Source of the DNA: Gammaproteobacteria bacterium
Lineage (GTDB): Bacteria; Pseudomonadota; Gammaproteobacteria; SZUA-152
Length of the DNA stretch: 64,000 nucleotides
NCBI GenBank assembly: GCA_011321815.1
Contig: DROS01000040.1
Location: forward strand, 1 to 64,000
Direction: 5' to 3'
Under the pieces are notes generated by a model. It was not told the origin of the DNA. It made no database searches and saw nothing but the letters and a program-made list of their open reading frames with translations. Numbering within the stretch: the first letter of the stretch is position 1; the number at the start of each line of letters is the position of its first letter. This document shows positions 28,753-57,883 of the stretch, one piece after another. Position numbers and translations under genes: made by a program.

Positions 28753-28919
28753 CTAGGAGAATGTCGGACTTAGGGAATCGTCGCGGGAGAAAACCATTTT
28801 GCGTCCATTTTTTTGATCGTTTGAGGCGAATATTGGATATATTCAACGAAAAGGATCGAGAAAATGGGCTGAAATGGTTTTTTCGCAGTAGATTCACCCT
28901 AAGTCCGACAGACTCCTAG
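28753..28919. repeat. Palindromic MITE-like repeat family B, copy 1
   Basis: A 163-bp core (28755-28917, AGGAG...CTCCT) with terminal inverted repeats AGGAGnnTGTCGGACTTAGGG and flanking CT/AG. The palindrome continues inward (AAAACCATTT / AAATGGTTTT, CCATTTT / AAAATGG, GATC / GATC) to a centre near 28835, so the whole element can fold as one hairpin. The second copy is at 57647-57809, differing by only a few bases. No coding capacity and no transposase. It lies between the HD-GYP gene and the hybrid kinase gene and touches the stop codon of the latter. Confidence 0.88.
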
Positions 28920-52974: not shown

Positions 52975-53727
52975 TTATTTGTCACGCCAAGGTGTCAAAC
53001 GACGCTCAAGAAGATTCAGCGCCAGAGAAAAAAACAGGCCCAGAACACCAATCACAAAAATTCCCGCATACATGGCCTTGATGGAAAAGGTTTCCCACGA
53101 TTGCCAGATCAAATAACCAATGCCCGCATCAGCACCGGAAAATTCTGCGGCCACCACAATCACCAGACTGTAGCCGATGGCCAGTTTCAGTCCAGTGAAA
53201 ATTGCCGGCAGTGCCCCAGGCAATATCACCCGCAATACAAAGCTGGTTTTTTTGATGCGATAAACCTGCGCAACATCGTGGTAAATTTTTGCTACGCTGT
53301 CCACACCATGCAGGGTATTGATAAGCACCAGAAAAAAACTACCAATGGCAACAACCACAATTTTGGACATTTCACCAATGCCAAAAACGAGCATAATCAG
53401 CGGCAGAACAGCAATTTTAGGGATGGGATAAAGTAAAGCGACTAACGGATAAACCATTATACGTACTATATGGTTGAGCCCCATGGTCACGCCCAAAGCA
53501 ATACCACCGGCACAGCCAGCCAGATAACCCCAGAAAATACGATAAAGGCTGGCGCTGACATCTGTCCACAAACCCTCTCCAGGACTGGTAAAAATCAGAT
53601 AATGAAAAACAGCACTGGGTGCAGGAAAAAACCGGGCATCAAGAAAGCCACTGCGGGTGCATGCTTCCCATAGCAGTAAAATGCCCAGTGGTGATGCAAA
53701 CAACCAAAAATAGCGGTTCTTGAACAT
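52975..53727 (-). CDS. ABC transporter permease, NitT/TauT/SsuC type
   Basis: 250 residues, about six membrane helices. The BPD_transp_1 EAA-loop region is ILPGALPAIFTGLKLAIGYSLVIVVAAEF, typical of the sulfonate/nitrate/thiamine-precursor class. N-terminal helix FWLFASPLGILLLWEACTRSGF. The start overlaps the ATPase stop in TGATG. With the ATPase and the binding protein it forms one importer; the substrate is not readable from the permease. Confidence 0.92.
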   Translation of the reverse strand: MFKNRYFWLFASPLGILLLWEACTRSGFLDARFFPAPSAVFHYLIFTSPGEGLWTDVSASLYRIFWGYLAGCAGGIALGVTMGLNHIVRIMVYPLVALLYPIPKIAVLPLIMLVFGIGEMSKIVVVAIGSFFLVLINTLHGVDSVAKIYHDVAQVYRIKKTSFVLRVILPGALPAIFTGLKLAIGYSLVIVVAAEFSGADAGIGYLIWQSWETFSIKAMYAGIFVIGVLGLFFSLALNLLERRLTPWRDK

Positions 53728-54518
53728 CAGAAAGATTGTTTGTCCTTATGGCGAAAGGGTTCACATTCTTCACGCAGCAACGCCATCAACTCGCTGACCT
53801 GGTTTTGATAAGCCGGTAGTTTACGCAGAGCCAGGAACTCCCTCGGTCGTGGCAACTTGATCTCAATAATATTTTTTACCGTACCAGGATGAGCGCTCAT
53901 CACCAGCACCCGATCAGCAAGAAAAACGGCTTCTTCGATATCATGAGTGACAAACACCAAGGTCTTTTTTTTGCGCTGCCAGATATCCAGTAACAAACCA
54001 TGCAATGCACAACGTGTCTGATAATCAAGAAACACAAATGGTTCGTCCATCAACAAAATATCCGGTTCGTTGGCAAAACTGCGGGCGATACTGATTCGCT
54101 GACGCATACCGCCAGATAATTGATGCGGAAAATAATCAGCAAATGCCTTCAGCCCAACCAGATCAATAAATTCGTTAACAATGGCATCAAGATCACGGTT
54201 AATCATTTGCACATTGTTTTCCAGCAGGAAACGAATATTGTTGCGTGTCGTCATCCACGGAAACAGGCCATGTTCCTGAAACACCATACCAACAGTACCT
54301 TGCTTTAAAGAATCTGTTGATCGAATGCTTAACTCACCGGATGTGGCGGTTTCCAGGCCTGCGATGGTACGCAACAAGCTGGTTTTACCACAACCGCTGG
54401 GGCCAAGGATACAAAAAAATTCGCCCTGCCTGATTTGAAAATTCAGATTTTTATAAGCAACCGTTTGCTGTTTTTTACGGGAAAAAGTTTTGCTAAGCTG
54501 GGTGACAGAAATTTGCAT
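53727..54518 (-). CDS. ABC transporter ATP-binding protein, NitT/TauT/SsuB type
   Basis: 263 residues from the ATG at 54516-54518 (MQISVTQLSKTFSRKKQQTV); the frame is open to 54602 without family match. Walker A LGPSGCGKTSLL, Q-loop VFQEHGLFPW, signature LSGGMRQRI, Walker B ILLMDEPFVFLD, H-loop FVTHDIEEAVFLADRV. It drives import with the permease at 52975; 19 bp separate it from the binding-protein gene. Confidence 0.94.
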   Translation of the reverse strand: MQISVTQLSKTFSRKKQQTVAYKNLNFQIRQGEFFCILGPSGCGKTSLLRTIAGLETATSGELSIRSTDSLKQGTVGMVFQEHGLFPWMTTRNNIRFLLENNVQMINRDLDAIVNEFIDLVGLKAFADYFPHQLSGGMRQRISIARSFANEPDILLMDEPFVFLDYQTRCALHGLLLDIWQRKKKTLVFVTHDIEEAVFLADRVLVMSAHPGTVKNIIEIKLPRPREFLALRKLPAYQNQVSELMALLREECEPFRHKDKQSF

Positions 54519-54537
54519 AATATTTTTGTGCAGATTG

Positions 54538-55557
54538 CTACGGATAACGTCCCAGTTTTTTAGCCGCAGTATGTGCATAACCAAGATCAACAATGGCATC
54601 AATATCCGGCATGGCCTTCAGGTAACCTTGTTGAAAATACCACTGTGCATCGTCTTTCAGACTCTGCACATTAACCAGACCATCCGGGCTTAAACCAACC
54701 GGCACCACCTCCTGATAAACCGAGGCGTCTTTAATCCGTGTGGATTTTGTAAGAATGTTAATAACATCCTGCTTGCCTTTGCCTTTTTCAAAGGCATCGT
54801 TGTAATCGCGTAAACCACGCACGTAGGCATTCATGAAACCCTGCGCCTGTTTTGGGTATTGCTGCATAAATACCGGTGAATAGTAAATAACTGCGCTTTG
54901 CTGGTTGGGATAGATTTCATCATTACCTGCTACACGCACGGCAAAACCGTGTTTAATCGCAGCGGCAACAAACGGTTCGATTTGTACAGTAGCGTCAATG
55001 GATTTATTGGCCAACGCAATATTCATATCCGCATAGGCCAGCGTCACCAAGTGGATGTCTTTTGATGTTAACCCGGCCTTGCGTAAATATTTTTCAATGA
55101 CGATTTGTTGCGAAACGCCCTTGGCGGTAACTGCCAGGGTCATACCTTTCAGGTCTTTGAGACTACGATAACGGCCGTTATCCAGATGGTCTTTGCGTAC
55201 GATTAATGCGAGATAACCATGGCCAGGGCTCACTGTGCCTTTGTCTGAAACAATTTTAATGGGAATACCCTGGGCAATGGCGTTATACATGCCGGCGTTG
55301 ACATTGCCGCCAGCGACAAACAATTGACCTGTGGCTAAAAAAGGCACCATTTTTGCGCCAGAGGCCTTGAAGGGATTAATCACTACATCGATTCCCTCTT
55401 CGCGGAAATAGCCCCGTTCTTTGGCGATAAACATGGCGGCGGAACTCATTACCGGAGAAATGCCCACGGGCACTTCCAGCCGCTCGGAAGCAAAGCTGTT
55501 GCTGGTTAACAAAACGGTCCATAAAAAAAAGGTGGCAAACCGATAGCGTAAACACAT
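54538..55557 (-). CDS. ABC transporter substrate-binding protein (NMT1/THI5 / SsuA-like)
   Basis: 339 residues; Sec signal cleaved near SNSFA; GGGAA precedes the ATG. Type 2 periplasmic-binding fold of the NMT1/SsuA class: ISPVMSSAAMFIAKERGYFREEGIDVVINPF, 'LKDLKGMTLAVTAKGVSQQIVIEKYL', LANKSIDATVQIEPFVAAAIKHG and IYYSPVFMQQYPKQAQGFMNAYVRG. The class takes up sulfonates, nitrate or pyrimidine precursors of thiamine. The thiS-thiG genes 3.4 kb away make a thiamine precursor conceivable, but no TPP riboswitch is visible upstream, so the substrate stays open. Confidence 0.9.
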   Translation of the reverse strand: MCLRYRFATFFLWTVLLTSNSFASERLEVPVGISPVMSSAAMFIAKERGYFREEGIDVVINPFKASGAKMVPFLATGQLFVAGGNVNAGMYNAIAQGIPIKIVSDKGTVSPGHGYLALIVRKDHLDNGRYRSLKDLKGMTLAVTAKGVSQQIVIEKYLRKAGLTSKDIHLVTLAYADMNIALANKSIDATVQIEPFVAAAIKHGFAVRVAGNDEIYPNQQSAVIYYSPVFMQQYPKQAQGFMNAYVRGLRDYNDAFEKGKGKQDVINILTKSTRIKDASVYQEVVPVGLSPDGLVNVQSLKDDAQWYFQQGYLKAMPDIDAIVDLGYAHTAAKKLGRYP

Positions 55558-55624: not shown

Positions 55625-56503
55625 TCATAAACTTAAACTGCTGAAATACAGGCCAATGCCAGCAACAGCGGTTAATGCGCCAATGATCTCACGCAAAGTG
55701 ACATGCTCTTTCAGCCAAAAAACCGCCAGTGGCAAAATGAACAGAGGACTGGTGGAGTTAAGTGTGGCGGCAACAGCGGCATAAGTGTACTTCAGCGCCA
55801 CGATGGACAACCAGGTACCCAATAAAGCGCCGATCAGTGAGGCGGCAAGTAGCGTTTTCAGCCGTTTCCCATTGCGCAATGGGCTGACCCAGCCCAACAA
55901 GTCACGCACCATCAATCCCCAGAAGGTCAGGCCGGCAATGGCAAAGACCTGGCGAACAAAAGTGGCCTCCAGTGCGGGAATATCCGCCACACCGACCTTG
56001 GTGGCAATAATGCCCAAAGCGTTGGCGGCCACGAATAACAGGCCAAAAAAAAGTCCGCTGCGATATTTTTCACGTGACTGCTGTTGCGTGTTTTCTTGTG
56101 GTGCGCGCTGCCACAATACATAAGTAACACCGACAATGGCCAACGACATGCCGAACCAGGCCAATGCGGAAATTTGTTCGCCTAAAAAAACCACGGCGAT
56201 AAACGCGGTAGTAACCGGGATCAATGAACCCAGCAACAGGGTGCGCCGTGCTCCCAGTCGCATCAGAGTCAGAAAATAGAGCGTGTCACCAAAACAGATA
56301 CCGATAATACCGCTAAGCGCTAATGCAGCAAGACTGTTTGCATCAACCAATGCCAAGCTGGAATAAAATCCGGGCAACAGCAAAACAGCCATAAACAGCA
56401 TCGCCACCAATCCCTTGGCCAGATTAATACCCATGGCTGGAACATGGTCACCGATACGCCGGAACAAGATGGCGGCAACAGCCCAACAAAAGGCTGATAA
56501 CAA
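55625..56503 (-). CDS. EamA/DMT-family transporter
   Basis: 292 residues with ten membrane helices in two EamA repeats (LLSAFCWAVAAILFRRIG ... ; FFGLLFVAANALGIIATKVGV ...). The only ordinary start codon is the TTG at 56501-56503. An in-frame TAA lies 19 codons upstream and no ATG or GTG lies between, yet family alignment suggests some 8-13 more residues (the segment HILGAVAA is in frame). An ATT preceded by AGGA at an 8-nt spacing would give them, so a rare start or a sequence error is possible. It is probably an exporter of small metabolites. The gene is 67 bp upstream of the binding-protein gene, on the same strand. Confidence 0.85.
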   Translation of the reverse strand: MLSAFCWAVAAILFRRIGDHVPAMGINLAKGLVAMLFMAVLLLPGFYSSLALVDANSLAALALSGIIGICFGDTLYFLTLMRLGARRTLLLGSLIPVTTAFIAVVFLGEQISALAWFGMSLAIVGVTYVLWQRAPQENTQQQSREKYRSGLFFGLLFVAANALGIIATKVGVADIPALEATFVRQVFAIAGLTFWGLMVRDLLGWVSPLRNGKRLKTLLAASLIGALLGTWLSIVALKYTYAAVAATLNSTSPLFILPLAVFWLKEHVTLREIIGALTAVAGIGLYFSSLSL

Positions 56504-56640: not shown

Positions 56641-56709
56641 ACTGATCACATGCTGGTACCATAGCATCGCACTCAAACAAACCTATTCCACATACTATTG
56701 GGATCAAGG

Positions 56710-57471
56710 ATGGTACAGAAAATTTTTAAAACAAGTCTGTTATTGTTCGCCACGGCGCTTATCAGTAGCTGTATGCATGCAACACATATTGGCCAGCCGC
56801 TCATGACGGTTCCTCACCCGGGAAAATATCAGCTGGCTTATCATACGTCACAGGCATTTCCGTTGTACGCCATGGCCACGGTCGATGGCCGGGAGTTTCT
56901 GGTGGTGGATGACGTTGTTCTACCGTCGGTACAAAGCCTGTATCTGCTGACTCACTGGAAAATCTTTGAGGATGAAACTGTATTGGATATGGGCACAGGC
57001 TCCGGCGTGCAGGCTGTTTTTGCCGCAGACAAAGCCAGCAAGGTCGTGGCCACAGACATCAATCCGACAGCCGTTAAAATGGCCCGTTTGAATGCAGAAA
57101 GAAACGGGGTAGGGGATGTTATTGACATCAGACAAGGTGATTTATTCGCACCAATAAACACGGGTGAAAAATTTGATGTCATTCTGTTCAATATTGATTA
57201 TCCCCACAATGAAGCAACCCAGGGGCTCTGGAAATTGCATGAACGCTTTTTCGCCGAAGTGAAAAATTATCTTAACCACGGTGGACGTATTTATTACCAG
57301 TCGGGCCGCATTGATAACATAGCACGCATCGACAGCATGGCCAGCAAGAATGGCATGAGTATTCTCAGTATACGCATGGACGTTGCGCTGGAAGCTGACA
57401 GACAGCCCGTTGTGTATCTTATTAAACGCAGCCTGGATGTGGAGGTGAAAACCACGACTTGGGGCGGGTGA
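56710..57471 (+). CDS. SAM-dependent methyltransferase-fold protein with lipoprotein signal
   Basis: 253 residues from the ATG at 56710 with GGGA upstream; a TTG at 56698 is an alternative. The N-terminus is a textbook lipoprotein signal (KIFKTSLLLFATALISSC, lipobox ISSC, Cys about 21). The rest is a PrmC/UbiE-like class I methyltransferase domain: motif I VLDMGTGSGVQAVFAADKA, motif II VVATDINPTAVKMARLNAE, and motif IV FDVILFNIDYPHN in place of NPPY. Since SAM is cytoplasmic, an exported methyltransferase makes little sense: either the signal is not used, the fold has another role, or the true start is internal. No partner gene is evident. Confidence 0.75.
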   Translation: MVQKIFKTSLLLFATALISSCMHATHIGQPLMTVPHPGKYQLAYHTSQAFPLYAMATVDGREFLVVDDVVLPSVQSLYLLTHWKIFEDETVLDMGTGSGVQAVFAADKASKVVATDINPTAVKMARLNAERNGVGDVIDIRQGDLFAPINTGEKFDVILFNIDYPHNEATQGLWKLHERFFAEVKNYLNHGGRIYYQSGRIDNIARIDSMASKNGMSILSIRMDVALEADRQPVVYLIKRSLDVEVKTTTWGG

Positions 57472-57494: not shown

Positions 57495-57568
57495 TGGAGC
57501 GGGTGATGGGAATCGAACCCACGTCATCAGCTTGGGAAGCTGAGGTAATACCATTATACGACACCCGC
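57495..57568 (-). tRNA. glyU: tRNA-Gly (anticodon CCC)
   Basis: 74 nt on the minus strand with encoded CCA. Acceptor stem GCGGGTG/CACCCGC; anticodon stem TCAGC/GCTGA enclosing loop TTCCCAA, so the anticodon is CCC; T-loop GGTTCGATTCC. It reads GGG codons. The body otherwise resembles the TCC isoacceptor of E. coli (GTATAATGGTATTACC D-arm). Confidence 0.95.
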
Positions 57569-57646: not shown

Positions 57647-57809
57647 AGGAGTCTGTCGGGCTTAGGGAATCGTCGCGAGAGAAAACCATTTTGAGTCCAT
57701 TTTGTTGATCGCTTGAGGCGAATATTGGACATATTCAACGAAAAGGATCGAGAAAATGGGCCGAAATGGTTTTTTCGCAGTAGATTCACCCTAAGTCCGA
57801 CAGGCTCCT
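57647..57809. repeat. Palindromic MITE-like repeat family B, copy 2
   Basis: 163 bp, AGGAG to CTCCT, colinear and nearly identical with 28755-28917. Ends are AGGAGTCTGTCGGGCTTAGG and, complemented, AGGAGCCTGTCGGACTTAGG. It sits about 28 bp upstream of the putative tRNA-Gly promoter and about 75 bp before the diguanylate cyclase start. No coding capacity. Confidence 0.88.
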
Positions 57810-57883
57810 AAGACAAGAAAAAGGTTCGCCCTACGTCACCAAACCTGTGCTAATATTCTGCGCATTACCCCACACCGAGTGAC

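Follow-up and report, generated by a model that had tools for sequence, protein, structure and literature searches.

A narrow gammaproteobacterial family of predicted exported lipoproteins with a conserved AdoMet-type methyltransferase pocket

The stretch of DNA analyzed here (the window, 64,000 nucleotides long) encodes a 253-aa protein, at 56710..57471 on the + strand, that is predicted to be an exported lipoprotein with a class I methyltransferase fold. Bacterial AdoMet-dependent methylation is taken to be cytoplasmic, so the joint presence of an export signal and an AdoMet pocket is a paradox. The paradox is real and conserved; the function, including the reaction, the substrate, and the AdoMet supply of the exported family, we infer. 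Sequence comparison across the family points to a conserved export signal, a common fold, a conserved pocket, purifying selection, and envelope-linked neighbors. We propose that the protein is an exported lipoprotein methyltransferase that has an AdoMet-type pocket and still methylates a partner outside the cytoplasm, a reading to which we assign a probability of a little under one half (about 0.47).

The protein belongs to a compact family. Among the loci examined, the 32 distinct members score between 240 and 379 bits, the next protein scores 87 bits and has no signal (G587), and below it come HemK-like enzymes at 76 bits and lower. Members were counted as distinct by core sequence, and duplicate records were dropped (e.g., L021-L023, which equal L002-L004). 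At E 1e-30, a member is found in 15 of the 24 genomes of the window's own taxonomic family (which is also its own order), in 1 of 3 and 2 of 5 genomes of two other orders, and in 5 of 369 genomes of the class sample, four besides its own. In the phylum sample (n = 398), only the window's own genome reaches this threshold, and three more reach 1e-20; the top six to seven candidates per genome were scored in both samples. Copy number is two in the window's genome (the second copy on C33), five in G011, and three in G059. The family is narrow and often multi-copy. One weak match, G018:C151 (L151), was rejected as a member: by eye it looks like a membrane protein whose C-terminal domain resembles spermidine synthase.

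The reading frame runs from the ATG at 56710 to the TGA at 57471, and its N terminus, MVQKIFKTSLLLFATALISSC, has a positive start, a hydrophobic core, and LISS before Cys21, with Met at +2. The signal peptide (residues 1 to 20, MVQKIFKTSLLLFATALISS; 56710..56769, + strand) has a best 10-residue mean KD of 2.46 preceded by a net charge of +2, and the Cys21 codon lies at 56770..56772 (+ strand). The lipobox reported by the sequence-only reading is thus present, with a hydrophobic segment that ends in LISSC and matches both the looser and the stricter of the two lipobox patterns used for scoring. An upstream TTG at 56698 would give a protein of 257 aa. It is less likely to be the start, because the alignment of the gene with its five closest orthologues begins at the ATG, and all five have letters resembling a ribosome-binding site just before it (AGGA in four, GAGGGG in one).

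These observations bear on whether the protein is cytoplasmic after all, with the segment serving as an anchor or the true start lying downstream, and with a cytoplasmic substrate at the membrane. ATG codons do follow the Cys in close orthologues (at positions 22-23, 32-33, and 55-57, two of the three positions being common to 6/6), and these favor a downstream start, but they are not family-wide. In the linker, scanned in the 32 members from the script's lipobox position to 20 residues before motif I, 9 members lack an ATG and 2 lack any of ATG, GTG, and TTG. The possibility that orthologues start after the hydrophobic segment therefore fails, and a start-site artifact is out, given the linkers without ATG and the alignment of orthologues from an ATG with ribosome-site-like letters.

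An N-terminal hydrophobic segment is found in all 32 members (best 10-residue mean of at least 1.83). A lipobox-type Cys closes this segment in 27 of them, and the signals of the other five look by eye like signal-peptidase-I substrates (G015:C122, G012:C118, and the three of G059, with sites such as ATASA, NTFA, GTAA, AFA, and AQA). The script's total of N-terminal Cys was 29; in L096 and L055 the residue sits within the hydrophobic stretch and does not qualify as a lipobox, which leaves 27. Of these, 22 fit the looser pattern and 17 the stricter one, the looser being missed by three LINGC, one LYSAC, and one CGSAC. For comparison, the script's rule found a lipobox plus hydrophobic segment in 10 of 229 neighboring ORFs, a background of unverified genes; since the filter recognized family members by GTGSGVQ or GTGSGIQ alone, a few of the 10 positives may themselves belong to the family. 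Given 27 lipobox-type Cys and five sites that by eye resemble those of signal peptidase I, the lipobox occurs more often than expected by chance. Among 19 control methyltransferases, two match the lipobox pattern, but their hydrophobic segments are weak (1.33 and 0.8); a third has a strong segment (2.33) and no lipobox. Orthologues conserve the pattern of the signal more than its letters: in six close orthologues, mean dN divided by mean dS gives 0.28 for the signal region (from 14 usable pairs out of 15) and, over 15 pairs, 0.12 for the remainder of the protein. The signal region is translated and under coding constraint.

The window's genome encodes LspA, the signal peptidase II (PF01252, 149.2 bits, on C66). 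As judged from sequence, export of the family members is near certain, and from the signal we infer that Sec export would be followed by a signal peptidase II cut and lipidation at Cys21. In enteric bacteria, Asp at +2 governs whether a lipoprotein resides in the outer or the inner membrane. In all 27 lipobox members, the +2 residue is something other than Asp, which suggests an outer-membrane location; provided that the enteric rule applies, the lipoprotein would probably be carried there.

Two further features speak to the compartment. The N-region carries a net positive charge in 27 members, no net charge in four, and a negative one in the last, and under the positive-inside rule this charge places the C-terminal part outside. 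The mature parts are also poor in cysteine: the script counted 6 in 7,628 aa across the 32 members, and 4 were left after two had been removed by eye (one in L104_-_1164 that is the lipobox itself and one in L055 that lies inside the signal), so that 28 of the 32 mature parts have none. The 19 chosen, presumably cytoplasmic methyltransferases have 92 cysteines in 5,627 aa, each at least two (Fisher's test, P of ~2e-28, with a first count of 5; residues of related proteins are not independent). These controls, from the same and other genomes, were picked from the non-family matches and read from the first Met of the frame, with their cytoplasmic location presumed from kinship; the set omits the long frames L100 and L111 as well as L025. 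Methyltransferases counted later have 0 (L061), 8 (L046), and 6 (L047) cysteines. The signal-less relative G587 also has no cysteine, and the lack is not unique to exported members. The sequence-only reading had offered two options, a domain with another ligand or role outside the cytoplasm or a protein that stays inside with a membrane-anchoring N terminus. The second is disfavored by the signals in all members, the N-region charge, and the cysteine-poor mature part, and, with lipobox or signal-peptidase-I-like sites conserved in signals that otherwise vary, we consider a cytoplasmic protein very improbable. The first gains support as to location, from the same three features; another ligand is possible but is not our preferred reading, as the AdoMet-type residues are near-invariant.

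The class I assignment rests on several lines of evidence. The protein matches PF05175 (54.1 bits, cut-off of 23) and PrmA (52.2 bits) in Pfam, and the 25 best of 80 NCBIfam matches all fall below their curated cut-offs. An AlphaFold2 model built from five sequences is of moderate quality (pLDDT of 65.1, pTM of 0.63, with residues 1-51 low). In structure comparisons, which included Foldseek, it aligns with MJ0882 (PDB 1dus) over 181 residues (Z of 20.3, rmsd of 3.1), with PrmA at Z up to 18.9, with HEMK2/N6AMT1 entries at 17.9-18.7, and with 9l4q, which contains AdoHcy, at 18.8. The modeled core plainly has a class I methyltransferase fold, to which the profile (PF05175), the structure (1dus), and the motif I pattern DxGxGxG with an acidic residue after strand 2 all assign it.

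The residues that line the pocket are almost unchanged across the family. Motif I, DMGTGSG (residues 93-99; 56986..57006, + strand), keeps D93 in 31 of 32 members and G95, T96, G97, and G99 in all; Asp116 at the end of strand 2 (57055..57057, +), which presumably contacts the AdoMet ribose, is kept in 32/32. In the motif III region, GDLF (residues 143-146; 57136..57147, +) has G143 in 30, D144 in 31, and L145 and F146 in all 32 members. Motif IV, FNIDYP (residues 160-165; 57187..57204, +), has N161 and Y164 in 30 and P165 in 31, and it is followed by HERFF (residues 177-181; 57238..57252, +), with H177 in 31, E178 in 29, R179 and F180 in 32, and F181 in 31. Identical in all members are V91, L92, G95, T96, G97, G99, A105, A114, D116, N128, R141, L145, F146, E153, F155, R179, F180, N203, and I218, and HERFF and YYQxG serve as family signatures. 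Motifs I and IV are therefore where the sequence-only reading had placed them, and its remark that motif IV is modified was correct: the motif is mostly N-I/L-x-Y-P (column 162 being I or L in 32/32 and the middle D in 18/32) and occupies the place where HemK-type enzymes have NPPY. Since NPPY is absent from the family, one would not expect its targets to be amino groups of glutamine or adenine.

The near-invariant AdoMet-type residues argue against a lost ligand, and the apparently intact pocket suggests AdoMet binding. A dead methyltransferase is disfavored by the same residues and by the dN/dS of 0.12. The near-invariance of residues that usually contact AdoMet is most simply read as retention of an AdoMet-like ligand by a protein located outside the cytoplasm. 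Periplasmic AdoMet is not known, which, like the unusual motif IV, is a point against a periplasmic methyltransferase. Both points fit an exported protein that is not a methyltransferase and whose pocket binds another nucleoside-like or heme-related ligand; such a lipoprotein would serve the transport or cytochrome systems encoded next to it by binding, by sensing, or as a chaperone. However, the complete set of AdoMet-type residues recurs in the different neighborhood types described below, which would be unusual after a change of ligand, and we regard such a protein as possible but doubtful.

The surroundings were examined for 31 of the 32 members, with the G005 member left out. The window gene is one of 12 type A members. 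Divergent to it lies an EamA/DMT transporter gene (55625..56503, - strand; PF00892, 115 bits; no PDB sequence match at E 0.01), followed by genes for an NMT1/SsuA-like solute-binding protein (54538..55557, -), an adjoining ABC ATPase (53727..54602, -), and an ABC permease (52975..53727, -; best NCBIfam match TauC, below the cut-off). A tRNA-Gly gene (anticodon ccc; 57495-57568, - strand) lies directly behind the window gene, and downstream of it is a near-palindromic element of ~164 bp (57647-57810, also at 28755-28918) with 66 alignments in its own genome. Many of these pair the two strands at a single site, and many lie where a contig ends, so that the element looks like a MITE or REP-like repeat.

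The divergent EamA gene is found at 11 type A loci and at G768, and the solute-binding protein comes next at 10 of these 12 loci, the contig ending at the others (G006 and G768). The remaining type A member, G011:C22, has a solute-binding protein in EamA's place. A HemN-like radical SAM gene lies near the type A genes of G014, G012, G059:C75, and G011:C22, and also occurs at G010, where there is no exported methyltransferase gene. This gene (L053:8621-10057, also at L050, L056, L143, and L028) is best matched as STM4012-like, below the cut-off, and lies near SsuA-like transporter genes. EamA is not upheld as an obligate partner: 12 of the 15 EamA orthologues found are divergent to the family gene and three are not, and 19 of the 31 members examined have no adjoining EamA. 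EamA and ABC genes occur without the family gene in G010 and G001, and EamA stands apart from both at G011:C86. Within the window's own taxonomic family, a member is present in 11 of 12 EamA-bearing genomes and in 4 of the 12 others, a difference that kinship alone could explain.

Type B comprises eight members that form one clade (support of 100/100); at the seven loci examined, the order is TatB, TatC, the family gene, and a DeaD-type helicase, with YggX called in five of the seven. Type C comprises seven members at six loci, all six with a beta-propeller and a multiheme cytochrome and five with ResB, mostly as part of ResB/CcsA/TlpA. At five of these six loci, the family gene follows an ICMT-like membrane protein, whose kinship to ICMT/PEMT is weak (30.6 of 160 bits in NCBIfam; 20.2 and 17.8 of 25 in Pfam) and confined to ~80 C-terminal residues; the G017 copy has no Pfam match at E 0.001. 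The ICMT-like protein is likewise not upheld as an obligate partner, since the cytochrome locus exists without the family gene in G021 and G019, where the tblastn ends of the two neighbors are 78 and 50 bases apart. ICMT-like and cytochrome genes without the family gene are also seen in G016, and in G018, a genome with no member found, the contig ends just after an ICMT-like gene that accompanies ResB. The cytochrome clusters (L048, L049, L063, L052, L147, and L149) encode long multiheme cytochromes with doubled CXXCH, lactonase-type beta-propellers, mostly ResB/CcsA/TlpA, and a ~420-aa membrane protein with a C terminus weakly like ICMT/PEMT; they look like an electron-transfer module, which accompanies the exported methyltransferase at some loci and stands alone at others.

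Around the four remaining members, no such setting is present in full; upstream of one of them, G059:C57, a TlpA-like gene lies at a distance of three ORFs. On the tree, the neighborhood groups change label 7 times, against a mean of 17.3 after shuffling (as low in 0 of 200 shuffles). At G768, ResB, the ICMT-like gene, the family gene, and EamA are consecutive. Because this locus joins types A and C, both settings may descend from one cluster. The family gene looks like an accessory part of these loci, and its neighbors, EamA at 12 loci, multiheme cytochromes at six, and TatBC at seven, point to the envelope.

The neighborhoods also bear on the alternatives. Solute-binding protein and ABC genes at type A loci, four of them with the HemN-like gene, and multiheme cytochromes with mostly cytochrome c assembly genes at type C loci would suit a ligand-binding lipoprotein that does not methylate. 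Scavenging or sensing of AdoMet or AdoHcy outside the cytoplasm, with uptake by the neighboring EamA or ABC system and without methylation, would fit the presence of EamA and ABC genes at type A loci, and a SAM-importing EamA is known in Rickettsia, where it moves SAM inward. However, we saw no EamA at type B and type C loci, and the conservation of motif IV and HERFF, neither of which is among the usual AdoMet contacts, suggests an additional site on the substrate side, so that we consider scavenging or sensing quite improbable.

Returning to an exported methyltransferase, we hypothesize that its globular class I domain most likely still transfers a methyl group outside the cytoplasm, to a partner that could be an envelope protein, a cytochrome-related molecule, or an exported small molecule. 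More speculatively, the divergent EamA would move AdoMet outward, which we offer as a testable lead and not as a result, with AdoHcy as its assumed counter-substrate. That some Gammaproteobacteria carry out periplasmic AdoMet methylation of envelope or cytochrome-related partners by such a lipoprotein, fed at many loci by a dedicated EamA antiporter of the inner membrane that exchanges AdoMet from the cytoplasm for AdoHcy from the periplasm, is in this full form unlikely. With an export-type signal and the AdoMet residues kept in every member found, extracytoplasmic AdoMet chemistry becomes directly testable with one small protein and one neighboring transporter. If the pocket binds something else, the family would be a case of a methyltransferase fold redeployed in the envelope, next to electron-transfer genes in some of the genomes.

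Among known systems, the best NCBIfam match is to HemK2/MTQ2-like enzymes of the class I fold (NF011529, PRK14968; residues 65-217), at 97.8 of 162 bits and, for TIGR00537, 76.8 of 87 bits, both below the curated scores; unlike them, the family described here has an N-I/L-x-Y-P motif IV and an export signal. A profile match to the PrmC/HemK structures (PDB 1nv8 and 1sg9; E of 6e-15) extends over motifs I to IV. However, the score for the N5-glutamine methyltransferase TIGR03534 is 62.9 bits (cut-off of 199.1), the window protein is predicted to be exported, and its motif IV reads N-I-D-Y-P in place of NPPY. MJ0882 (1dus) and PrmA, among the best structural matches, share 19-24% identity with it in those alignments. 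COG4798, a family of signal-bearing predicted methyltransferases, yielded no paper in the open-licence literature, and phrase searches of that literature, by title and opening of the abstract, yielded none on a bacterial envelope methyltransferase or on periplasmic AdoMet. Exported methyltransferases as such are not new: papers on Mycobacterium tuberculosis and on a plant protist speak of a "secreted methyltransferase", and those of M. tuberculosis are said in the abstracts to act on the host. In the host compartment, AdoMet is available to these enzymes.

Methylation of surface proteins exists in Gram-negative bacteria, through the outer-membrane protein lysine methyltransferases KmtA and rickettsial PKMT1/2, as described in an excerpt of PMC11784438. 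The likeness is by description; the excerpt mentions no export signal and gives KmtA ~516 residues and PKMT1 a dimerization domain, unlike the 253-aa window protein (PMC11784438). EamA proteins carry many substrates, and the divergent neighbor shares with the rickettsial SAM antiporter the same broad EamA family, a likeness at the family level only. Excerpts describe a rickettsial EamA as a SAM antiporter (PMC5615194), EamA as the SAM importer of many intracellular bacteria (PMC7750005), and a characterized SAM carrier in Amoebophilus (cited in PMC8831229). Because EamA proteins carry SAM elsewhere, the divergent EamA is a natural suspect for an outward supply of AdoMet.
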